64,000 nucleotides of DNA from Mariprofundus sp. KV. Its GTDB lineage: Bacteria > Pseudomonadota > Zetaproteobacteria > Mariprofundales > Mariprofundaceae. Positions within the stretch are counted from its first letter, which is position 1, and every line of letters starts with the position of its first letter. A program made the translations under genes and the position numbers. Positions 5,950 to 64,000 of the stretch are shown piece after piece. Under the pieces are notes generated by a model that saw only the letters and a program-made list of their open reading frames with translations, ran no database searches and had not been told where the DNA came from. The stretch lies in assembly GCF_013387475.1 (NCBI RefSeq), contig NZ_VWNB01000008.1, positions 1-64,000 on the forward strand, read 5' to 3'.

Positions 5950-7041
5950 TTAGCGCCGGACGTTGCTGCGCACAAACGGTAAAGTTGTGCGCTCAGCAGG
6001 GACTGCTTTGCCACGAATCTCTACCGTTAATGGAGCAGACTCAGCGTGTTCCGGTTTCACATAGGCCAGGGCAACGCCGCCAGCCATCGGGCTGAACATA
6101 CCGGAGGTGATCTCACCGGTTTCCACGCCATTGGCAAACACCTTGTAGTGCTCACGCGGGATACCGCGTTCGGTCAGTTTGATGGCGATCAGACGCTGAT
6201 GTGCCCCCTCTGCACGGCGTGCCTCAACCGCAGCTTTACCGATAAAGTCACCCTTATCGAGCTTGGTGATCCACATCAGTTTGGCCTCAACCGGTGTAAC
6301 CGCGTCAGAGATCTCGTGGCCGTAGAGGGCATAACCCATCTCGGTGCGCAGCATGTCGCGGGCGGCAAGGCCGATCGGTTCAGCGCCATTGGCAAGTAGC
6401 TTCTGCCATACCTCTACTGCGATGGCGTTGGGGATATAGATCTCAAAGCCATCCTCACCGGTGTAACCGGTGCGTGATATAATGCTGTTGCGACCAGCGA
6501 TACTTACCTGTGCAAATTTATAGTAGCCGATGCTCTCCAGATCGCTTTCAAGTAGTGGCTGCAGTGCAGCCTGAGCGGCAGCACCCTGTAGCGCCAGCAG
6601 CGTGGTATCGTCTGACTCATCACTCACCTGCACATCGAATGCCGCAGCCTGCTGCAGCAGATGTGCCACATCCTTATGACGGTTGGCGGCATTGATACAG
6701 AGGTAATATTCACGATCTGAAATTTTGTAGGTGGTGATATCATCGATGAAGGTGCCTGCATCATTGAGCAGGGCCGAGTAGTGCACCTGTCCTTCTGCCA
6801 GTTTTGAGACATCGTTGGTGGTGACATATTGCAGGAAAGCCAGTGCATCGGCACCTGCGACGCGCACCTGCCCCATGTGGGTGATATCAAAAAGGCCTGC
6901 GCCACCTTCACGCACAAAGGTGTACTCTTTCAGGGCACCGTTTTTGTACTGTACCGGCATCTCAAAGCCGGCAAACGGCACCATCTTGCCACCAAGCGTT
7001 ACGTGCTCATCAAAGATCGGGGTTTTAGCCAGTTCGCTCAC
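5950..7041 (-). CDS. gcvT: aminomethyltransferase (glycine cleavage T protein)
   Basis: A 363-residue T-protein that releases ammonia from the GcvH-bound aminomethyl group and makes 5,10-methylene-THF. Typical segments are TPIFDEHVTLGGKMVPFAG, the folate-site region AGLFDITHMGQ and SRTGYTGEDGFEIY. The start is GTG at 7041, overlapping the folD stop by one base (TAGTG), which implies coupled translation. It is about 40 bases upstream of gcvH. Its product is the direct substrate of FolD, which explains the pairing. Confidence 0.96.
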   Translation of the reverse strand: MSELAKTPIFDEHVTLGGKMVPFAGFEMPVQYKNGALKEYTFVREGGAGLFDITHMGQVRVAGADALAFLQYVTTNDVSKLAEGQVHYSALLNDAGTFIDDITTYKISDREYYLCINAANRHKDVAHLLQQAAAFDVQVSDESDDTTLLALQGAAAQAALQPLLESDLESIGYYKFAQVSIAGRNSIISRTGYTGEDGFEIYIPNAIAVEVWQKLLANGAEPIGLAARDMLRTEMGYALYGHEISDAVTPVEAKLMWITKLDKGDFIGKAAVEARRAEGAHQRLIAIKLTERGIPREHYKVFANGVETGEITSGMFSPMAGGVALAYVKPEHAESAPLTVEIRGKAVPAERTTLPFVRSNVRR

Positions 7042-7910
7042 TATTCGTCGCCTACGTGTGTTTTGAATGCCTGCACGGTATTGGCCAGCAGCATGGTGAT
7101 GGTCATCGGTCCGACGCCACCGGGAACAGGGGTGATCCAGCCGGCGCGCTGGCTGGCGGCTTCAAACTCAACGTCTCCGGTCAGCGAACCATCTTCAAGG
7201 CGGTGGATGCCCACATCAATGACAATGGCACCCTCTTTGATCCATTCGCCTTTGATCAGGCCGCGTTTGCCTGCCGCTGCCACGACAATCTCGGCACGCT
7301 CAATATGCTGCTGAAGGTTTCTGGTGAAACGGTGGCAGACGGTAACGGTGGCACCGGCCAACAGCAGTTCCAGCGCCATTGGGCGACCGACAATGTTCGA
7401 TGCGCCGACAATCACACACTCCATGCCATGCAGATCAAGGCCTGTTTCAGCCAGCAGCTTCATGCAGCCGTAGGGGGTGCAGGAGCGCAGTGCAGGTTTG
7501 CGGGCAGTCAGGCGTCCGACGTTATAAGGGTGGAATCCGTCAACATCCTTGCCCGGATCGATCGCTTCGAGGATCGTCTCGGAGTTGATGTGATCAGGAA
7601 CCGGAAGCTGAACCAGAATGCCATCCACCTTGGGATCGTTGTTCAGTTCGGCAATCAGGCCAAGCAGATGCAGCTGGGTGGTGTCGGCAGGCAGTTCGTG
7701 TGAAAAGGAGCGGATGCCCGCCTTTTCACAGCCCAGTTTCTTGTTTTTGACATAGACATGCGAGGCGGGGTCGTTGCCGACAATGATCACGGCAAGGCCG
7801 GGTGCGCGACCATGTTTCTGTTTAAGTGCGGCAGCCTCCACACCGATTTCACCGCGCATGCGGTCGGAGAGGGCTTTGCCGTTGAGGATGTTTGCAGTTG
7901 AAGCGTTCAT
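7041..7910 (-). CDS. folD: bifunctional methylene-THF dehydrogenase / methenyl-THF cyclohydrolase
   Basis: With start [11 protein letters not shown] at 7910 the protein has 289 residues, the normal FolD length. Conserved parts are [14 protein letters not shown] (with the catalytic Lys of the YxxxK motif), [19 protein letters not shown]-like [10 protein letters not shown], and the NADP site [15 protein letters not shown], ending [15 protein letters not shown]. An in-frame Met four codons upstream (7922) is possible; neither start has a strong ribosome site. First gene of the glycine cleavage operon, so serine/glycine-derived one-carbon units are made and interconverted by one transcript. The promoter must lie in the short divergent gap to mak; no glycine riboswitch is visible there. 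Confidence 0.96.
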
Positions 7911-7948
7911 AAGGCTGCGCATTGTTGCAGTAAGGCTCGGTTCAGACA

Positions 7949-8887
7949 ATGATAAGCTGCATGAACGTGTTTCCTGAATCAGGACTGCGCATCGGCATCG
8001 ACCTTGGCGGCAGTAAAATTGAACTGATTGCGCTGGACGCCTGCGGCTCTGAACTGCTGCGTTTCCGCCGTGCCACCCCCGCTGGCGATTACCGGCAGAC
8101 GGTTCAGCTGATCGCAGCCATGGTTGCAGAGGCGGAAGCCGACCTGGGTGCAGAGGCCAGCGTGGGTGTCGGTACACCGGGTGCGATATCACTGAAAAGC
8201 GGGCTGATGAAAAACTGTAACTCGACCTGCCTGAACGACATGCCACTGCAGCAGGATCTGCAGCGGCAGCTTGGCCGAGAGGTGCGCCTGAGCAATGATG
8301 CCAACTGTTTTGCGCTCTCCGAAGCGGTGGATGGCGCAGCCGCCGGGGCCGGTATGGTGTTCGGCGTGATTCTCGGCACCGGGGTCGGTGGCGGTATCGT
8401 AGTCAATGGCAAGGTGCTCAATGGCGCCAACAGTATTGCCGGTGAGTGGGGCCATAATCCGCTGCCCTGTCCGCAAGCGGATGAGCTGCCGGGACCAGCC
8501 TGTTATTGTGGGCGATATGGCTGTATTGAGACGTGGCTCTCCGGGCCGGCGATGAGTGCTGACCACCGGCGACATGAGCAGGTCAGTGTATCAGCTGAAG
8601 AGATTGTCAGGTTGGCAGGAGAGGGTGATCAATCTTGTCAGCAGAGCGTGGCGCGTTATTGTGATCGTTTGGCCAGAGCGCTGGCTGGTGTAATCAACAT
8701 CATCGATCCCGATACCATTGTGCTCGGCGGTGGTATGTCGAACATCAAGCCGCTTTATGATGAAGTGCCACGCTTATGGGGGAGTTATATCTTCTCAGAT
8801 GAGGTGCGCACACGCCTTGTCGCTCCGAAGTTCGGTGACTCTTCCGGCGTACGCGGGGCAGCATGGCTATGGAGCCAGGGGAACTAA
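7949..8887 (+). CDS. mak: fructokinase, ROK family
   Basis: A 312-residue ROK-family sugar kinase. It follows E. coli Mak almost segment by segment: [16 protein letters not shown] (ATP phosphate loop), DDYRQT-like [28 protein letters not shown] (catalytic Asp in NDAN), [22 protein letters not shown], the zinc site [12 protein letters not shown], and the end [13 protein letters not shown]. It phosphorylates free fructose using ATP. Starts at ATG 7949 or ATG 7961; E. coli Mak would begin near residue 13, so the later start may be right. Divergent from folD with only about 38 bases between. Confidence 0.9.
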
Positions 8888-8888
8888 T

Positions 8889-9245
8889 ATGAAGTTTATG
8901 CATATGGCACTGATTGTATCCGATCTGAAACGGGCAGCAGATTTTTATGAATCTATCCTTGGTTTGACGAAGATTGCGCGCCCTGATCTCGGCTTTGATG
9001 GTCTCTGGTACGGGCTTGATGGCGGCAGTGAGCTGCATCTGATGCTGCTTGATAATCCATACGCCGACTGCAGTAAGCCGGAGCATGGTGGACGCGATAA
9101 CCACATCGCTCTGCAAAGTGATGCGTTCGACAAGATTCGCCAGCGTCTTGATTCTGTGGTTATCCCATACACCATGAGCCGGTCAGGGCGTAAGGCACTC
9201 TTCTTCCGTGATCCTGATGGTAATACGATTGAACTGATGGCCTGA
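8889..9245 (+). CDS. VOC-family (glyoxalase/dioxygenase-fold) protein
   Basis: A 118-residue single-domain vicinal-oxygen-chelate protein starting MKFMHMALIVSDLKRAADFYESILG and ending FFRDPDGNTIELMA, the two hallmark segments of the fold. His6 and Glu near the C-terminus (IELM) are the usual metal ligands, with His in ELHLML and DNHIAL as others. It starts one base after the mak stop, so it is co-transcribed. Substrate unknown: lactoylglutathione lyase-like chemistry is possible, and gshA lies next door on the opposite strand, but the protein is equally like uncharacterised VOC proteins. Confidence 0.8.
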   Translation: MKFMHMALIVSDLKRAADFYESILGLTKIARPDLGFDGLWYGLDGGSELHLMLLDNPYADCSKPEHGGRDNHIALQSDAFDKIRQRLDSVVIPYTMSRSGRKALFFRDPDGNTIELMA

Positions 9246-9272
9246 TTGGTGATTGGCCCGCAGCCGTATCAA

Positions 9273-10616
9273 TCAAATATGCATCGCCTCAAAAAAGACG
9301 CGGTCGATGTTTTTGTTCCATGCACCGTGATAGAGCTCAAGCCAGAATTCAGCCTGTGTCTGACCGGCGGCAATGGCACTTTCCAGTGGTTTAAGAAAGA
9401 TGGTCTCGTTTTGGCCGCTGCTGTTGCGGGCATCAATGCGCTCAAGACCTGCCCGGCTGATCTGTAGCATCTGGTCACAGAGCTGCAGTGCGGTTGTCCC
9501 TCTGAACGGTGTGGCCAGTGCAGTTTTCGGGGTGTTGGCTCGCAGTTCAACCACCTCGGCATGGCTCCAGTCGGCTATCATCTGCCAGGCCTGCTGCTGC
9601 GCCTGTTGGTCATAAAGTAAGCCTTTCCAGAGGGCGGGCAGCGAACAGATCCACGGCCATGGCCCGGCATCGGCGCCGCGCATCTCCATGTACTGTTTCA
9701 GTCGCACGTCGGGGAAGAGGGTGGAGACATGCAGTTCCCAATCCGCAATGGTCGGAAACTGGCCGGGCAGCTGATCAAGCTTGCCGGCCATGAAATCGCG
9801 GAAGCTGGCGCCGGCACAATCTATATATTCATTGTCGCGAATAAGGCAGTACATCGGCGCATCAAGCGCCCACTCGGTATAAGCGGCAAAGCCGAAATCC
9901 TCAGCAAAGGCACAGGCCGGGATACCGGTACGATTGGAGTCGGTATCAAGCCAGCAGGCACCACGGCGGGAGAGGTAAGCCGATGGTTTGCCATTTTCAA
10001 ACGGGCTGGCGGCATACAAGGCGGTGACCAGCGGTTGCAGGCAGAGTGAAATGCGCATCTTCTGCGCCATATCCGCCTCCGATTCGAAATCGATATTGGC
10101 CTGTACGGTTGCGGTGCGCAGCATCATATCCAGGCCGCCACTGCCAACCTTCGGCATATAGTTGCGCATGATTCTGTAGCGCGCTTTCGGCATCCACGGA
10201 ATATCATCGCGTTGCCACTTGGGCTGAAAGCCCATGGCGAGAAAACCGATGCGCAGCTCATCAGTCACACTTTTGAGGATTTTGTGGTAAGCGGTGGTCT
10301 CTTCGCAGGTCTGGTGGATCGTGGCGTGCGGGGCGCCGGAGAGTTCAAGCTGACCACCCGGTTCAAGGGTGATCGAGGCCATGCCGTTTTTCAGTGCAAT
10401 GATATTTCCATGTTCCCTGACCGGTTGCCACTCCTGACTGGCTAGCAGTGTCAGCAGGTTGCGGATGCTGCGCTCCCCCTCATAAGGGATCGGCTTGAGC
10501 GTATCCATGCAGAAACCGACCTTTTCATGTTCGGTGCCGATGCGCCACGTTGCACGCGGTTTGCAACCCTGTTTGAACCAGTTGCTCAGGTCAGATGTGG
10601 AGAGATGCGATGACAT
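9273..10616 (-). CDS. gshA: glutamate-cysteine ligase, plant/alphaproteobacterial type
   Basis: A 447-residue GCS2-family ligase catalysing ATP-dependent gamma-glutamylcysteine formation, the first step of glutathione synthesis. Recognisable segments are RIGTEHEKVGF near the start, ITLEPGGQLELSGAP, MLRTATVQANIDF and MEMRGADAGPWPWICSLPAL. Length fits the plant-like bacterial type rather than the E. coli GshA family. It faces the VOC gene tail to tail. A gamma-glutamyltransferase (ggt) gene at 55114-56736 would break glutathione down in the periplasm. Confidence 0.92.
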   Translation of the reverse strand: MSSHLSTSDLSNWFKQGCKPRATWRIGTEHEKVGFCMDTLKPIPYEGERSIRNLLTLLASQEWQPVREHGNIIALKNGMASITLEPGGQLELSGAPHATIHQTCEETTAYHKILKSVTDELRIGFLAMGFQPKWQRDDIPWMPKARYRIMRNYMPKVGSGGLDMMLRTATVQANIDFESEADMAQKMRISLCLQPLVTALYAASPFENGKPSAYLSRRGACWLDTDSNRTGIPACAFAEDFGFAAYTEWALDAPMYCLIRDNEYIDCAGASFRDFMAGKLDQLPGQFPTIADWELHVSTLFPDVRLKQYMEMRGADAGPWPWICSLPALWKGLLYDQQAQQQAWQMIADWSHAEVVELRANTPKTALATPFRGTTALQLCDQMLQISRAGLERIDARNSSGQNETIFLKPLESAIAAGQTQAEFWLELYHGAWNKNIDRVFFEAMHI

Positions 10617-56740: not shown

Positions 56741-57211
56741 TCAGCTATCACTCAAGGCTGAAAGCACGGCATTCCATGCTGCTGCTAAGTTCTTTCGATT
56801 ATAACCACCGCCACCAAGGGCGATGATGCGGCGCTGGCTGAATTCATCTGCGATTCTGCAGAGGCTGGCGGCGGCGAGGGCGTGGGATTTTGGTGTGAGC
56901 TGCATATGGGTGATCGGGTCTCCGGCTATGGAGTCAGCACCGCACTGAAAGATGATGAATTCCGGATTGAATGCGCGGATAAAAGCTTCGGCTTCGGGCC
57001 AGATATTGAGGAAATCAGCATCGTTTGCACCGGGTCGCATCGGCAGATTCAGTTTGGTGCCTTTTGCAGCTCCTCTGCCTGTTTCATCAGCGAAACCCGT
57101 ACCGGGATAGAGGTGGGCACCATCCTCGTGGAGATCGACAACACATAGATCGGCATCATTTTCAAAGGCGTAGAAGACGCCATCGCCGTGGTGGGCATCG
57201 ATATCGCCATT
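56741..57211 (-). pseudogene. histone-deacetylase-family (AcuC-like) gene, 5' truncated
   Basis: Reading leftwards from about 57211 the frame gives GDIDAHHGDGVFYAFEND, then DLHEDGAHLYPGTGFADETG, MRPGANDADFLNIWPEAEAFI, FQCGADSIAGDPI and IALGGGGYNRKNLAAAW. This is the C-terminal 60% of a class II HDAC/acetoin-utilisation family protein, with the catalytic DxDxHHGDG motif at the very edge. Directly upstream in frame stand two stops (TAA TAA), and the normal N-terminal half (about 120 residues) is absent. The gene was probably cut by arrival of the hsd island. A shorter internal Met (57040) exists but would lack the active site. Confidence 0.85.
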
Positions 57212-57230
57212 TTATTATGTTTGAAAAATA

Positions 57231-57282
57231 GTTGCATCGCTAAACCATTATATAGACTTCTATAATCGAGTTTTTATGCAAC
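57231..57282. repeat. 52-bp symmetric dyad beside the island junction
   Basis: GTTGCAT (57231-57237) mirrors ATGCAAC (57276-57282), and ATTATA (57247-57252) mirrors TATAAT (57261-57266), with equal 9-base gaps on both sides and an 8-base centre. It begins 20 bases from the truncated HDAC gene. A related half, TTGAAAA-N2-GTTGCA, recurs at 57305-57319 (compare TTGAAAA-N3-GTTGCA at 57221-57236). It could be an attachment or terminal element of the island, or an operator. No gene is seen here. Confidence 0.6.
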
Positions 57283-57407
57283 CGGATAACACCCTTCTGA
57301 TTGATTGAAAATGGTTGCAAAAGTGAGATGAAAAAACTGTGGTGATTTCAGCGTGGCATATATTAACTGGGTGCAATTATTGCTTTGGTTTTCGCTTCAC
57401 CGTGCCG

Positions 57408-57642
57408 GTTGCCTCAAGGCAACTGTCCAACATTGGACAGTGATAAAATAAACGAAAAGAGCTTGTCCACGGCTGGACAGTCGAAAGTTGCCTCAAGGCA
57501 ACTGTCCAACATTGGACAGTGATAAAATAAATGGAAAGAGCTTGTCCACGCTTGGACAAGCTCCTGAGACTGAGCGTATTGAGGTTTTGTCCACGACTGG
57601 ACAGATGAAAGTTGTCACGTGGCAACTACCCATCGATGGCAC
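57408..57642. repeat. ordered palindrome array (TGTCCA-N4-TGGACA and GTTGCC-N4-GGCAAC)
   Basis: Five exact TGTCCA-N4-TGGACA palindromes start at 57424, 57464, 57503, 57543 and 57588 (spacing 40, 39, 40 and 45). GTTGCC-N4-GGCAAC palindromes start at 57408 and 57487, with a one-mismatch third copy at 57611 followed by a decayed sixth TGTCCA-type site (57627-57642). The first 45 bases of the 79-bp unit at 57408 recur identically at 57487. Both palindrome types have 6-bp arms and a 4-base centre. The array lies in the 654-bp gap (57212-57865) that separates the broken HDAC gene from hsdM; short frames across it are repetitive and unconvincing as proteins. Confidence 0.9.
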
Positions 57643-57744
57643 CTATGGGATAATTGATACAGGTGTTATTTGGAAAAACAGTTGCTGATATTCACACTGT
57701 TGCAGGTATGCGCGCTTAAAGAGGTGTATTCCAGTGTAAATGTA

Positions 57745-57777
57745 GGTGTAAAGTGTAATTACACTAGGATTTACACC
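57745..57777. promoter_or_regulatory. nested palindrome upstream of hsdM
   Basis: A perfect 14-bp palindrome, AGTGTAATTACACT (57752-57765), sits inside a wider inverted repeat, GGTGTAAA (57745-57752) and TTTACACC (57770-57777). The motif GTGTAA also occurs at 57734-57739. It lies 30 bases upstream of the likely hsdM promoter and looks like an operator for a dimeric regulator, whose gene is not visible. Confidence 0.6.
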
Positions 57778-57807
57778 CCCCCATGATTGAGGTTTAGAGG
57801 GCAGTCA

Positions 57808-57835
57808 TTCACGTTATCAAAATCTCTGCTACACT
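57808..57835 (+). promoter_or_regulatory. likely promoter of the hsd-CBASS operon
   Basis: TTCACG (57808-57813), a 16-base spacer and TACACT (57830-57835) form a fair sigma-70 promoter 30 bases before the hsdM start. The leader then carries GGGGAGAGAG as ribosome site. Confidence 0.5.
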
Positions 57836-57865
57836 AGCGAAGATAGGGACATGGGGAGAGAGTAG

Positions 57866-59488
57866 ATGCAGTGGATTGCACCATCTGAGAAAGATCAGGC
57901 AAACAATACATTAGAGAAAAGGCTTTGGGATGCAGCCGATCAGTTTCGGGCCAATTCTGGGCTGACTGCAGCGCAGTATTCCGCCCCAGTTTTGGGTATG
58001 ATCTTTCTGCGCTTTGCCGAAACCCGTTTTGAGCAGCGTCGTGCCGAGCTGGATGCTGCCGGCGCATCGTCGCGGCGCTCCGGTTCCCGTGTGGATGATC
58101 CTGCCGCTTATCATGCTGAAAGTGTCATGTATCTGCCTGAGACTGCCCGTTTCGCGCATCTGCTGGCCATGCCGGAAGGTGGCAATATCGGCCAGGCGAT
58201 CAATGATGCGATGGCCGAGGTGGAGAAGTTTAATCCTCAGCTTGCCGGTGTGTTGCCACGCTCCTATCAGCTGTTCGAAAGCACTCTGCTGAAGGATATT
58301 CTGAAGAAGGTCTCCGAGATTCCGGTCAGTCTCGAATACGATGCCTTTGGTCGCATCTACGAATACTTCCTCGGCGCATTCGCCCGCACTGAGGGGCAGA
58401 AGGGTGGTGAGTTCTATACGCCATCCTCCATCGTTCGCCTTCTGGTCGAGGTGATCGAACCCTTCCACGGCAAGGTGCTTGATCCCGCTTGTGGTTCCGG
58501 TGGTATGTTTGTGCAGTCCGCCCGCTTTGTTTCCGAGCATCACAAGTCAGCAGCCGATGAGTTATTTATCCACGGTGTTGAGAAGACCGACGAAACTGGT
58601 CGTTTGGCTCGCATGAACCTCTCCATTCACGGTCTTGAGGGGGATATCCGCCACGGTGGTCATATCAACTCCTATTACGATGATCCCCACAGTGCCGTCG
58701 GCCAGTTCGATTTTGTGTTGGCTAATCCGCCGTTCAATGTGAATGCCGTGGATAAGGAGCGGCTGGAATCCGATGTCGGCGAAGGTCGTCGCTATCCCTT
58801 CGGACTTCCGCGCACCGACAACGGCAACTACCTCTGGATTCAGCTCTTTTACTCCAGCCTGAACGATCAGGGCCGTGCCGGCTTCGTGATGGCCAATTCT
58901 GCTGCCGATGCCCGCTCCTCAGAGATGGAGCTGCGCCGCCAACTGATTGAAGCCAAGGGTGTTGATGTGATGGTTGCCGTTGGCCCGAACATGTTCTACA
59001 CCGTAACGCTGCCCTGCACCCTCTGGTTCCTCGACAAGGGTAAGAAGGGAACCCCTCGCGAGGATCAGGTGCTGTTCATCGATGCTCGCCATATCTATCG
59101 CCAGATTGACCGTGCCCATCGCGACTGGACGGAGGCACAGAGCAGCTTCATCGCCAATGTCGTGCGTCTCTATCGCGGCGAATATGTTGATCTCACACTG
59201 GGTGGCGAAGAGACAGAAGCGAAGCTAAAAGAGGTGTTCGGTGATGCACCTGCATATGCTGATATCCCCGGTCTCTGCAAAGCGGCTACGCTTGCTGAGA
59301 TAGAGGCACAGGGTTGGAGTCTTAATCCCGGTCGCTATGTCGGTGTCGCCCCCGGCGAAGATCTGAGCGATGAGGATTTCAAGGAAAAACTCGAAGCCCT
59401 CAACGAAGAGTTGGAAGTGCTCAATTCGGAGGCGCGTGAATTAGAAGCGGTCATTGCAGCCAATGTGGCAGAGATATTGGCTGCATGA
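57866..59488 (+). CDS. hsdM: type I restriction-modification methyltransferase subunit
   Basis: A 540-residue HsdM. The N-terminal helical domain ([23 protein letters not shown], then [12 protein letters not shown]) is followed by the N6-adenine methylase: [24 protein letters not shown] motif [10 protein letters not shown] and catalytic motif ANPPFN (NPPF). The C-terminal coiled coil ([27 protein letters not shown]) probably contacts HsdS. It methylates the host sites specified by HsdS. Four-base overlap with hsdS. Base composition is like the host genes, unlike the following cassette. Confidence 0.95.
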
Positions 59489-60810
59489 TAACGATTAGCG
59501 ATCCATTGCGTGCCTTTGCAGAGAAGCTACCTTTAGATTGGCAATTGTTGCCGTTCAACGCGATGCTTTCAGAGCCTGTCCGCAACGGAATTTACAAGAA
59601 GAAAGAATTTCACGGAAAAGGAACTCGTGTTGTAAATATGGGTGAACTTTTTGGGTTCGATTTCATCTCTGCGCAAGAAATGAAGAGAGTTGAATTGACG
59701 GCAGTTGAGGAACGGAAATCAGGCCTGAAAGATGGGGATCTTCTCTTTGCTCGCCGTTCATTGGTTTTCGAGGGCGCAGGGAAATGTTCATTGGTTGTTA
59801 ATCCGTCGGAACTCCTCACCTTCGAATCATCTATTATTCGAGCACGGCCAAATCGGCAAGTCGCCGAGCCTAGGTTTCTGTTCTATCTTTTTTCTTCGCC
59901 GCTTGGCCGAGCGATAATTGCCTCAATTGCAACACGAACGGCGGTGTCTGGAATTAGAGGGAGCGATTTGATGGGGGTTGGGTTGCCACTTCCCCCTCTG
60001 ACTACTCAACGGCGCATTGCGGGGATATTGTCGGCCTATGATGAGCTGATCGAAAACAACCAGCGGCGGATCAGGATTCTGGAAGAGATGGCGCGCAGCC
60101 TTTGCCGCGAATGGTTCGTCCATTTCCGCTATCCCGGCCATGAGGAAGTCCCCCTCGTTGATTCCCCCCTTGGACCCATTCCGCAAGGGTGGGAGGTGAA
60201 GCAAGTTAAAGACTTTGGAAAGGTGATCACGGGAAAAACGCCAAGCAAATCTAACCCAGCGTTTTACGGTGAGGATAACCAATTCGTAAAAACCCCGGAT
60301 ATGCATGGAAACATGTTCATTCTAGATACAGTAGATCGACTTTCTGATGCAGGGGCCTTGTCCCAAACAAATAAAACACTCCCCGTTGGCTCCATTTGCG
60401 TGAGCTGTATTGGAACCATTGGTGTGGTTTCTCTGACAACTGAAGAATGTCAGACGAATCAGCAGATTAATTCCGTGGCCCTGAACAGTTCTGAACATAG
60501 AGAATACCTCTACTTTTGCCTTCAAGGGTCAAAGCAGAGACTTGAGAATTTAGGTTCCAATGGCGCAACGATGGGCAACGTCAATAAGGGTAAGTTTGAG
60601 GCTATGGAGATTATTTCCCCACCAAGTGACTTGTTGATTAACTACCACCGCCTTGTGGTGCCAATATTTTCTGAAATCCTCAGGGCCTCTCGGCTCAGTG
60701 GAAACTTACGGCAGGCTCGCGACCTGCTACTGCCGAAGCTATTAAGTGGTCAGATTAGTGTTCAGCAATGCTCTCTAACTTCGGAGGATTTGTATGCCGC
60801 GAACAGTTGA
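59485..60810 (+). CDS. hsdS: type I restriction-modification specificity subunit
   Basis: A 441-residue HsdS with two target-recognition domains (about 15-170 and 230-395). Each ends in a conserved helical spacer: [38 protein letters not shown] in the centre and [24 protein letters not shown] at the end. The central phrase [14 protein letters not shown] and [23 protein letters not shown] begin the second half. It fixes the bipartite DNA target. The target domains are more A+T-rich than the spacers, as usual for shuffled domains. Its last 17 bases overlap the CD-NTase gene. Confidence 0.93.
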
Positions 60811-61666
60811 CGAAGGATTTAAGGACTTTTTAACTAAACTCACGCCTTCTGCTATAGAGTCAGAAGCGGTGAAGAAGCACCGTGCCTCTATTAAAGCTTG
60901 CTTGGAAGCCAGCTATAAAATGAATCGCTTTGTTCGAATAGGCTCCTTTGGAAATGGAACGAGCATAGCGGGCTACAGTGATGTGGATTATCTAGCGAGC
61001 CTCCCAACAAGCCAGTTGAATCAGAATTCAACTTATACGCTGTCAAAAGTTAAAACCACACTGGATACCAGATTCCCTCGAACAGGAGTCCAAGTAAGCT
61101 GCCCTGCTGTTGCAATACCATTTGGGACCAAGGCAGCGGAACACACAGAGATCGTGCCTGCGGACTTTGTTAATGAAGACGAATACTACAAAATATATGA
61201 AATCGCAGACTGCTCTGGAGGGTGGATGCGCGTATGTCCAGATGCTCATAATGCCTATAGTAATTATGCTAATTCTGAACGGGGTGGGAAAGCCAAGCCG
61301 CTGATTAGATTTATTAAAGCCTGGAAGTATTATTGCAATGTCCCCATTTCATCTTTTTATTTAGAAATGCAAACAGCTAAATATGCTTTAGGAGAGGATG
61401 TCATTGTTTATGCCATTGATGTGAAGAGGGTGTTGAAAATGCTGTTGGACAGTGAACTGGCAATGATGCAAGACCCTATGGGACGTTCGGGCTACATTGT
61501 CCCATGTAAGACCGAAGCCATGAAACAAGATGCATTATCCAAACTTCAGATTGCTGTCTCCAGAGCTGAAAAGGCGCTTGCTGCTGATAGCGCTACCAAG
61601 ACATCCGATGCATTTTATTGGTGGCGGTTACTATATAATGACCAGTTCCCAACATACTACTACTGA
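60794..61666 (+). CDS. CBASS CD-NTase (SMODS-family cyclic oligonucleotide synthase)
   Basis: A 290-residue nucleotidyltransferase. The active site is GSFGNGTSIAGYSDVDYLA: Gly50-Ser51 of the helix N-cap and metal ligands Asp63 and Asp65. The third acidic residue is probably Glu119 in HTEIVPADF. The C-terminal helical domain LIRFIKAWKYYCNVPISSFYLEM is typical of the SMODS group. Such enzymes sense phage infection and make cyclic di- or trinucleotides. A GGAGG site precedes ATG 60794, which lies inside the hsdS end; its stop overlaps the effector start (TGATG). Visibly A+T-richer than hsdM. Nucleobase specificity and clade cannot be told by eye; an OAS/poly(A)-like NTase is a less likely alternative. 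Confidence 0.88.
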   Translation: MPRTVDEGFKDFLTKLTPSAIESEAVKKHRASIKACLEASYKMNRFVRIGSFGNGTSIAGYSDVDYLASLPTSQLNQNSTYTLSKVKTTLDTRFPRTGVQVSCPAVAIPFGTKAAEHTEIVPADFVNEDEYYKIYEIADCSGGWMRVCPDAHNAYSNYANSERGGKAKPLIRFIKAWKYYCNVPISSFYLEMQTAKYALGEDVIVYAIDVKRVLKMLLDSELAMMQDPMGRSGYIVPCKTEAMKQDALSKLQIAVSRAEKALAADSATKTSDAFYWWRLLYNDQFPTYYY

Positions 61667-62595
61667 TGAACAATATTCCTGAAGAGCAAAACTCTCCCAA
61701 ACAACTTGATCGATTAGCTGCTCAAAGAAATCTTTATGCGACGGCAAAAAAGATATTTGGAGTACAAATTACTCTGGCAGCTCCCATTGCAATAGTTTGG
61801 ACTATTTCAGTTTTGGTTGATCGTAGCATTGTGGGTTATGCTGCTATTTGGGGTTTGACCGTTGTTCTTTCAGACATTCTGTTTCTCACGCCATGGCAAA
61901 AACGTTTGAGAGCTAAGGCCGCTAAGATTCAAGAGCTGTTTGATTGTGATGTTCTTCAGATGCCATGGAATGAAATTAAGGCTGGCCCCCCCCCAGCACC
62001 AGAGGAAGTCAAAGAGCAGTCTGATAGATACAAAAAAGTTGAAGGTAAGCATCCAACACTTGTAAACTGGTATGCCCCCGTGGTTGGAGAGCTTCCAATA
62101 GCAATGGCTAGGCTGGTTTGCCAGAGGACTAATTGTTGGTGGGATGCTACTCAGAGAAAGCGCTATGCTGCATGGATACTAGGCATCATTTTATTCATTT
62201 TGCTGTTAATTGTTGGAATAGGTTTATTTGGAGGTCTGACTGTTGAGGCGCTTTTCCTTGGGGCAATACTACCTCTTGCGCCAGCCATTACCGTTGGAGT
62301 TAGACAGTTCCTTGAACAGATGGAGTCAGCCCAAAGACTCGATGAGTTAAGAAATCATGCCGAGGGAATTTGGGCTGCTGCATGTTGCAATCCAGATTCA
62401 CCAGAATTTGCCCTTAAATCTAGGTCGTTACAAAATGAAATTTTTGATAACCGAAAACGAACCCCTTTAGTTTTTGATTGGATATTTAAGCTCTTTAGAG
62501 ATAAGTACGAGGACCAGATGAATTATAGTGCTGAAGAATTGGTGCAAGAGGCAAGCAGAAGTATAAATTCATACGGCAGCGGAACCAATGTCTGA
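61666..62595 (+). CDS. S-4TM family putative pore-forming CBASS effector
   Basis: A 309-residue membrane protein with four helices in two pairs: about 31-52 and 54-77, then 167-189 and 191-211. A cytoplasmic middle region carries IQELFDCDVLQMPWNEIKAG, the diagnostic stretch of S-4TM proteins; a soluble helical tail (about 215-309) follows. S-4TM proteins are predicted to permeabilise the membrane when bound by a cyclic nucleotide, killing the infected cell. One-base overlap with the CD-NTase stop and eight-base overlap with hsdR place it in one transcript. A+T-rich like its partner. No Cap2/Cap3, HORMA or TRIP13 genes are present, so the unit would be a minimal (type I) CBASS. Confidence 0.87.
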   Translation: MNNIPEEQNSPKQLDRLAAQRNLYATAKKIFGVQITLAAPIAIVWTISVLVDRSIVGYAAIWGLTVVLSDILFLTPWQKRLRAKAAKIQELFDCDVLQMPWNEIKAGPPPAPEEVKEQSDRYKKVEGKHPTLVNWYAPVVGELPIAMARLVCQRTNCWWDATQRKRYAAWILGIILFILLLIVGIGLFGGLTVEALFLGAILPLAPAITVGVRQFLEQMESAQRLDELRNHAEGIWAAACCNPDSPEFALKSRSLQNEIFDNRKRTPLVFDWIFKLFRDKYEDQMNYSAEELVQEASRSINSYGSGTNV

Positions 62596-64000
62596 TTATT
62601 CAGAAGACGGTCTAGTCGAACAGCCTGCTATCCAGCTCTTTGGGGAGCTGGGATGGGAGACTGTTAACGCCACCGATGAAATGCTTGGGGCTGAGGGTAC
62701 GCTAGGACGTGATGTTAAAGGCGAAGTGATTCTTGGTGCTCGGCTGCGCTCTAAAGTTCAAAGGTTGAATTCTGGATTTCCTGAAGTAGCCATCAATGCA
62801 GCGATAGATGAAGTGAGTCGTGACCGTTCGGCTACGACACCAGAATCAGCCAACCGTGAGCTATGGGGATTGATGCGCGATGGCGTGAAGGTATCCATTC
62901 CCGACCATGAGAAGGGTGGGGTTAAGACCGAGCGGGTGCAGTTGATCGACTGGAACAATCCGGCAAACAATGAGTTCCTGCTGGTTAGCCAGATGACCAT
63001 TACCGGGCCGCTCTATACCTGCCGTCCCGATTTGATCGGTTTTGTGAACGGCATCCCCTGGGTGGTGATTGAGCTGAAGAGGCCGGGAGTGTCGGCCAGA
63101 AATGGCTTTGATGAGAACCTGACAAGCTATAAACACGCGCAGAACGGCATTCCTGCACTCTTCTGGAGTAATGCTTTGCTGATCGCATCCAACGGAACAG
63201 AGAGCCGTGTGGGTTCGCTTACAGCCGAATGGGAGCGCTTCTTCGAGTGGAAGCGTATCGAACGTGAGGATGAGCCTCGCCGGGTCTCACTAGAGGTGAT
63301 GTTGCGCGGTTTATGTGAACCGTCTCGCTTGCTTGATATGGTGGAGAACTACACGCTCTTTTCTGAGCACAAACAGGGGCTGACCAAGATCATCGGTCAG
63401 AACCATCAGTTCCTCGGCGTGAACAATGCCATTGATGCCACACTCAATGCCCGCGATGAAGGACATGGTCGTGGCGGTGTCTTCTGGCAGACGCAGGGCT
63501 CGGGCAAGAGCTTCTCGATGGTCTTCTTTGCACAGAAGATTCTGCGCAAACATCCGGGAAACTGGACCTTCGTAATTATCACCGACCGTGTGGAGCTGGA
63601 TGAGCAGATTGCCCGCACCTTTGCGGCCTGTGGAGCGGTCACCGATGCGAATGCCTGTCATGCATCTTCCGGCGTACATTTGAGAGAACTGCTCTCCGGA
63701 AACAACCGTTACGTATTCACGCTGATCCACAAGTTTCAGGATGATGCGGTACTGTGTGACCGCAAGGATGTGATTGTTCTGACCGATGAAGCGCATCGCA
63801 GCCAGTACGACACGCTGGCCATGAACATGCGAGCAGCTCTCCCTAATGCCACCTTTGTAGCATTTACAGGCACCCCGCTGATTGCTGGCGAGGAGCGTAC
63901 CCGTGAGGTGTTCGGTGATTACGTCTCCATCTACGACTTCCAGCAGTCAATCGAGGACGGGGCAACGGTGCCGCTCTTCTATGAGAACCGCACACCTGAA
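62588..64000 (+). CDS. hsdR: type I restriction enzyme, endonuclease/translocase subunit (partial)
   Basis: Opens MSDYSEDGLVEQPAIQLFGE at ATG 62588, inside the effector gene's end, and is open to the window edge (471 codons seen of about 1,000). The N-terminal PD-(D/E)xK nuclease has PDLIGF (Asp148) and VVIELKRPG (Glu162, Lys164). The translocase shows Walker A TQGSGKSFSM (about 300), VIITDRVELDEQI, Walker B LTDEAHRSQ (about 400) and motif III FTGTP. It cuts unmethylated DNA with HsdM and HsdS. No defect is seen in the part present. Confidence 0.95.
   Translation, partial: MSDYSEDGLVEQPAIQLFGELGWETVNATDEMLGAEGTLGRDVKGEVILGARLRSKVQRLNSGFPEVAINAAIDEVSRDRSATTPESANRELWGLMRDGVKVSIPDHEKGGVKTERVQLIDWNNPANNEFLLVSQMTITGPLYTCRPDLIGFVNGIPWVVIELKRPGVSARNGFDENLTSYKHAQNGIPALFWSNALLIASNGTESRVGSLTAEWERFFEWKRIEREDEPRRVSLEVMLRGLCEPSRLLDMVENYTLFSEHKQGLTKIIGQNHQFLGVNNAIDATLNARDEGHGRGGVFWQTQGSGKSFSMVFFAQKILRKHPGNWTFVIITDRVELDEQIARTFAACGAVTDANACHASSGVHLRELLSGNNRYVFTLIHKFQDDAVLCDRKDVIVLTDEAHRSQYDTLAMNMRAALPNATFVAFTGTPLIAGEERTREVFGDYVSIYDFQQSIEDGATVPLFYENRTPE

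Follow-up and report, generated by a model that had tools for sequence, protein, structure and literature searches.

The 64,000-nt window, i.e. the whole stretch of Mariprofundus sp. KV DNA that was analysed, ends inside a mobile element of 18.8 kb whose remainder lies beyond the window on contig C27 (Table 1). The element sits in a histone-deacetylase-family gene of the minus strand, which is uninterrupted in congeners and is split here into two parts (profile positions 148–298 at 56753–57205, and 1–148 at C27 76017–76439); congener sequence at the break (e.g. GCTTATGTCGATATCGATGCC) places the junctions within a few bases. About 25 bp inside the left end lies GTTGCAT, which is found inverted at the right end. 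From left to right, the element contains a palindrome array, hsdM, hsdS, a CD-NTase gene, a 4TM effector gene, hsdR, a four-gene recombinase module and further cargo. An earlier note on this DNA, made from the sequence alone, had placed an hsd-CBASS defence operon behind the array, and this was right: PADLOC recovered hsdM, hsdS and the CD-NTase with an effector that defines CBASS. Absent from that note was the setting of the array within a mobile element, 200 bp from its end.

Table 1. Features of the palindrome array, the defence operon and the mobile element (window positions, unless C27 or L018 is given)
Feature	Position	Strand	Remark
Histone-deacetylase-family gene, C-terminal half	56753–57205	-	PF00850 profile positions 148–298
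Mobile element, left 6.8 kb	57206–64000	+	18.8 kb in full (C27 57206–76017); runs past the window
Left terminus of element	57206–57236	.	similar to the left termini of its relatives that sit in recQ
Palindrome array	57408–57642	.	79-bp unit twice, then a degenerate third unit
Palindrome A1, GTTGCC-TCAA-GGCAAC	57408–57423	.	
Palindrome B1, TGTCCA-ACAT-TGGACA	57424–57439	.	8-bp arms; abuts A1 directly
Palindrome B'1, TGTCCA-CGGC-TGGACA	57464–57479	.	
Palindrome A2, GTTGCC-TCAA-GGCAAC	57487–57502	.	
Palindrome B2, TGTCCA-ACAT-TGGACA	57503–57518	.	
Palindrome B'2, TGTCCA-CGCT-TGGACA	57543–57558	.	11-bp arms
Palindrome B'3, TGTCCA-CGAC-TGGACA	57588–57603	.	
Palindrome A3, GTTGTC-ACGT-GGCAAC	57611–57626	.	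single arm base altered
Degenerate B3, TACCCA-TCGA-TGGCAC	57627–57642	.	ninth site; closes the array
Second, separate repeat set: GTGTAA repeats with perfect AGTGTAATTACACT	57727–57779	.	from sequence; TRF row 57734–57757
hsdM, type I methyltransferase	57866–59488	+	PADLOC MTase_I 9e-229
hsdS, specificity subunit	59485–60810	+	PADLOC Specificity_I 2e-89
CBASS CD-NTase (cyclase)	60794–61666	+	PADLOC Cyclase 2e-119
CBASS 4TM effector	61666–62595	+	PADLOC 4TM effector 9e-104
hsdR, first part (on to C27 65746)	62588–64000	+	1052-aa ORF; name based on sequence and on its place behind hsdM/hsdS
Four-gene recombinase module (718, 671, 327, 429 aa)	C27 66016–72517 (L018 9016–15517)		

The array comprises five exact copies of TGTCCA-N4-TGGACA (the B and B' sites), whose exact arms, varying centres and positions are as the earlier note gave them, two exact copies of GTTGCC-N4-GGCAAC (A1 and A2) and one GTTGCC-type copy with a mismatch. 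The alternating second class reported in the note thus stands for two copies, and the third (at 57611) has one arm base changed. In the 660 bp from the element end to hsdM, there are seven perfect 6-4-6 palindromes, as compared to a mean of 0.21 and a maximum of 2 in 500 dinucleotide shuffles, a density far above chance. The array is made of a 79-bp unit present in 1.9 copies that are 94% alike, followed by a partial third piece (77%); because the unit is tandem, sites 1/3 and 2/4 are duplicates of each other, and the five sites do not count as independent. Centre-to-centre spacings are 40, 39, 40 and 45 bp, so that the 39–40 bp period noted for the first four sites is right, but the number of helical turns is not constantly four (3.7–4.3 turns). 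Unit 3 differs from units 1 and 2 at 6/36 arm positions and at 7/12 and 8/12 centre positions (one-sided Fisher P of 0.009 and 0.002, from a small sample and two non-independent comparisons), which suggests that the arms were kept relative to the centres between units. Since the altered arms of A3 and B3 carry no compensating changes, base-specific reading would fit the array better than a conserved hairpin.

The array is located 224–458 bp upstream of the hsdM start, and the operon is co-oriented. Between the array and hsdM lies the GTGTAA palindrome set, which is nearer to the likely hsdM promoter than the array is. A promoter scan of the region found nothing, no regulator gene was seen between the array and hsdM in the ORF list for 57206–57880 (judged by eye), and a tRNA search found none. 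Type III toxin-antitoxin RNA repeats were rejected, as hsdM comes next and no toxin-sized ORF lies in between. One string, TTGTCCACG, resembles the actinobacterial DnaA box minus its last base; DnaA boxes were rejected, given this missing final base and the absence of TTGTCCACG from the B sites.

The array was found once in its own genome, in none of the other genomes of the family that were searched and in none of 397 other genomes sampled from the phylum. The scattering over random loci that the earlier note had named as evidence against its reading is thereby excluded, and a generic or dispersed intergenic repeat family was rejected. Allowing up to two mismatches, the genome holds 23 sites versus 24 for a reversed control, and the sole one-mismatch site is within a lipoprotein-like coding sequence, so a host regulon was rejected as well. 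DNA similar to the array was found neither in plasmid records, which bears on the iteron-like element suggested in the earlier note, nor in 50,697 phage records, and a literature search for the motif strings returned nothing. Among viral contigs, L030 has eight TGTCCA-N4-TGGACA copies within 3 kb (6813–9665), one of them inside a reading frame. The earlier note had also said that absence of the array upstream of all related hsd operons, combined with no effect on expression, would count against it; the absence, which is half of this condition, was found for the closest hsdM homologues (76–77% identity), and a conserved hsd operator was rejected on that ground.

With regard to the carrier, the 671-aa and 429-aa module proteins have weak phage-integrase family matches, with R, HxxR, H and Y residues kept across relatives, the 718-aa protein has no Pfam match, and the 327-aa protein carries an AAA_33 domain. 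The four-gene module has relatives at 41–57% identity in a Gallionella MAG and in Methylotenera mobilis, both times within recQ close to the Walker A codons, and at 26–29% in Neptunicella. The Methylotenera and Gallionella elements (L031 and L032) have a left terminus like that at 57206 and about 100 bp from the left end to the first recombinase gene; neither contains the array, which was therefore rejected as an obligatory element end. On these comparisons, neither the mobile element nor the hsdM operon has the array as a conserved part. An additional left end deeper in the element, ahead of the first recombinase gene (L018 ~8926), was considered as well and set aside, the alignment giving no firm support. 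No relatives of the recombinases were found in viral contigs, a tblastn search of plasmid records with three of the four module proteins returned nothing close, and there was no NCBIfam match to Gamma-Mobile-Trio proteins (whose models are presumed to be present there). Three cargo genes at L018 15652–18495 (327, 232 and 224 aa) have no Pfam or NCBIfam match, and profile searches found no regulator gene in the right-hand cargo. For part of the intergenic stretch L018 17460–17600 (CGGCCATGAATGGACAG), the host genome has a near-copy at C4 71071, possibly a dispersed repeat, and a perfect hairpin with a 21-bp stem lies at L018 18578–18635, about 0.4 kb from the right end of the element.

Two known types of element invite comparison. 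GInt genomic islands have a four-gene module (a small protein beside three that are tyrosine-recombinase-like) at the 5' end beside attL with cargo behind, and insert site-specifically with imperfect direct repeats of 10–17 nt (PMC5385486). The SE element has the order intA-tfp-intB-srap, imperfect inverted ends with a 6-bp spacer, and a strand-biased circle, and leaves no empty site after excision (PMC10214605). Our element is like GInt in its apparent four-gene tyrosine-recombinase module (two of whose proteins keep the R, HxxR, H and Y residues), in its insertion within a gene and in cargo that can include RM systems (PMC5385486), but the module make-up differs (here the AAA domain is on an accessory protein), and the hsd-CBASS cargo follows the left end and precedes the module, the GInt plan being seen in L031 and L032 instead. 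Insertion inside a gene is clear here; flanking direct repeats of the 10–17 nt kind are not. With SE and Tn554 it shares two catalytic-type tyrosine recombinases with partner proteins, and imperfect inverted ends, but the module order, 718-671-327-429 aa, is not that of SE (PMC10214605). The ends of our element share GTTGCAT inverted. The module resembles both types in plan; we assigned the element to neither because gene order and cargo position differ.

Our tentative preference is to read the array as clustered operators of the hsdM-hsdS-CBASS-hsdR operon to which dimers would bind. The palindromes would act as double-stranded operators for a dimeric DNA-binding protein, one subunit contacting each 6-bp arm, with 10 bp between half-sites and hence arms about one helical turn apart; several such dimers, 224–458 bp before the hsdM start, would set the expression of the operon. 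Two half-sites one turn apart suit a helix-turn-helix dimer, and the 6-4-6 dyad geometry is like that of phage-repressor-type operators; no cognate regulator was found here. Presumably a protein binds the sites and acts on transcription; as the host shows no excess of sites, this protein is probably not one of its global regulators. The operator reading is favoured by the palindrome excess (7 versus 0.21), by arms that are steadier than the centres and by the single co-oriented operon downstream. Against it stand the hsdM homologues without an array, the location of the array upstream of the likeliest promoter area, the out-of-phase spacing, the empty promoter scan and the lack of a regulator gene before hsdM or in the right-hand cargo. 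The dimer site proposed in the earlier note agrees with the kept arms, drifting centres and uncompensated broken arms, and the note's interpretation as a whole is supported in part.

As for the protein, we can only speculate that the 327-aa protein of the element may be the binder: in a model of its N-terminal part, short helices (39–46 and 50–53) between longer ones could form a helix-turn-helix. Foldseek with this model gave no significant match (best E 2.7; several TetR-family chains were among the matches), and because the fold matches are non-significant the protein is only a lead. A precedent for the operator reading is the RptR island of enteropathogenic E. coli, in which a homodimer of RptR (a 79-aa repressor encoded by the first gene of the operon) represses a type I RM operon at three repeated palindromes, 6-bp TAGCTA sites in the promoter (PMC12255303). 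Our locus is similar in having repeated palindromes before a type I RM operon and, between hsdS and hsdR, the genes of a second defence system, but its sites are 16 bp long and 224–458 bp upstream of hsdM (PMC12255303). No rptR-like gene (~79 aa) was seen at the operon head in the ORF list for 57206–57880 (by eye), and none of TAGCTA, TAGATA, TATCTA and TATATA was seen in 57766–57865, the 100 bp before hsdM (RptR sites precede rptR instead).

Among the alternatives, it is rather unlikely that the array is a relic, i.e. a palindromic operator from another element that was tandemly duplicated and is now functionless. Its presence in only one of the genomes searched, its degenerate third unit and its conservation with neither the element nor hsdM agree with such an origin, but the better preservation of the arms than of the centres does not. 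The next structural alternative is an accessory recombination site, where the recombinases or the 327-aa protein would bind and build a recombination complex at the left end, since GTTGC, the core of the A arm, crowds that end (the left 500 bp are denser in it than elsewhere in 20 kb) and each of the two ends has GTTGCA repeats. The array and the left end are also 200 bp apart. We nevertheless consider this role unlikely: the Methylotenera and Gallionella elements have no array and only ~100 bp before the first recombinase gene, TGTCCA is missing from the right end, and neither palindromes nor hairpins came up when the GInt and SE papers were searched for such terms (PMC5385486, PMC10214605).

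More doubtful is a role of the palindromes as RNA hairpins, which would halt or slow transcription in the interval from the host gene fragment to the operon, or would form a leader structure. Folding of the array, proposed in the earlier note, gave far better values than shuffles for both strands (z of -6.6 and -7.4), and two terminator-like matches were found on the minus strand versus 0.6 expected. However, strong folding is expected of any palindrome array, the plus strand has no terminator-like match, and the arm changes are uncompensated; the Rfam scan gave no match at gathering score and so lends no support to the structured RNA that the note had suggested. Very improbable is a hairpin region for a single-stranded form of the element, such as a start of second-strand synthesis on a circular intermediate; if true, a mobile defence element would bring along a strand-conversion origin of its own, located at the left end. 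Least probable of all is that the array serves phage DNA-binding proteins as a decoy or sensor, an idea raised for phage proteins in the earlier note, as TGTCCA palindrome pairs are found in six viral contigs (one with 8 copies) but three control palindromes are found in 3, 2 and 7, which makes such pairs uninformative about phages, and the A-B combination occurs in no viral contig, with nothing similar in the phage records.

The array is real, unusual, present in a single one of the genomes searched and in an informative place. If it is indeed an operator cluster, it would show how an element-borne defence operon stays controlled in a new host, and would point to a regulator not yet known. 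The carrier may be the stronger result, and at least as interesting to specialists as the array: with its four-gene recombinase module, this kind of element inserts into genes of the host (one of the deacetylase family in our case, recQ in that of its relatives), and here it brings RM and CBASS with it.
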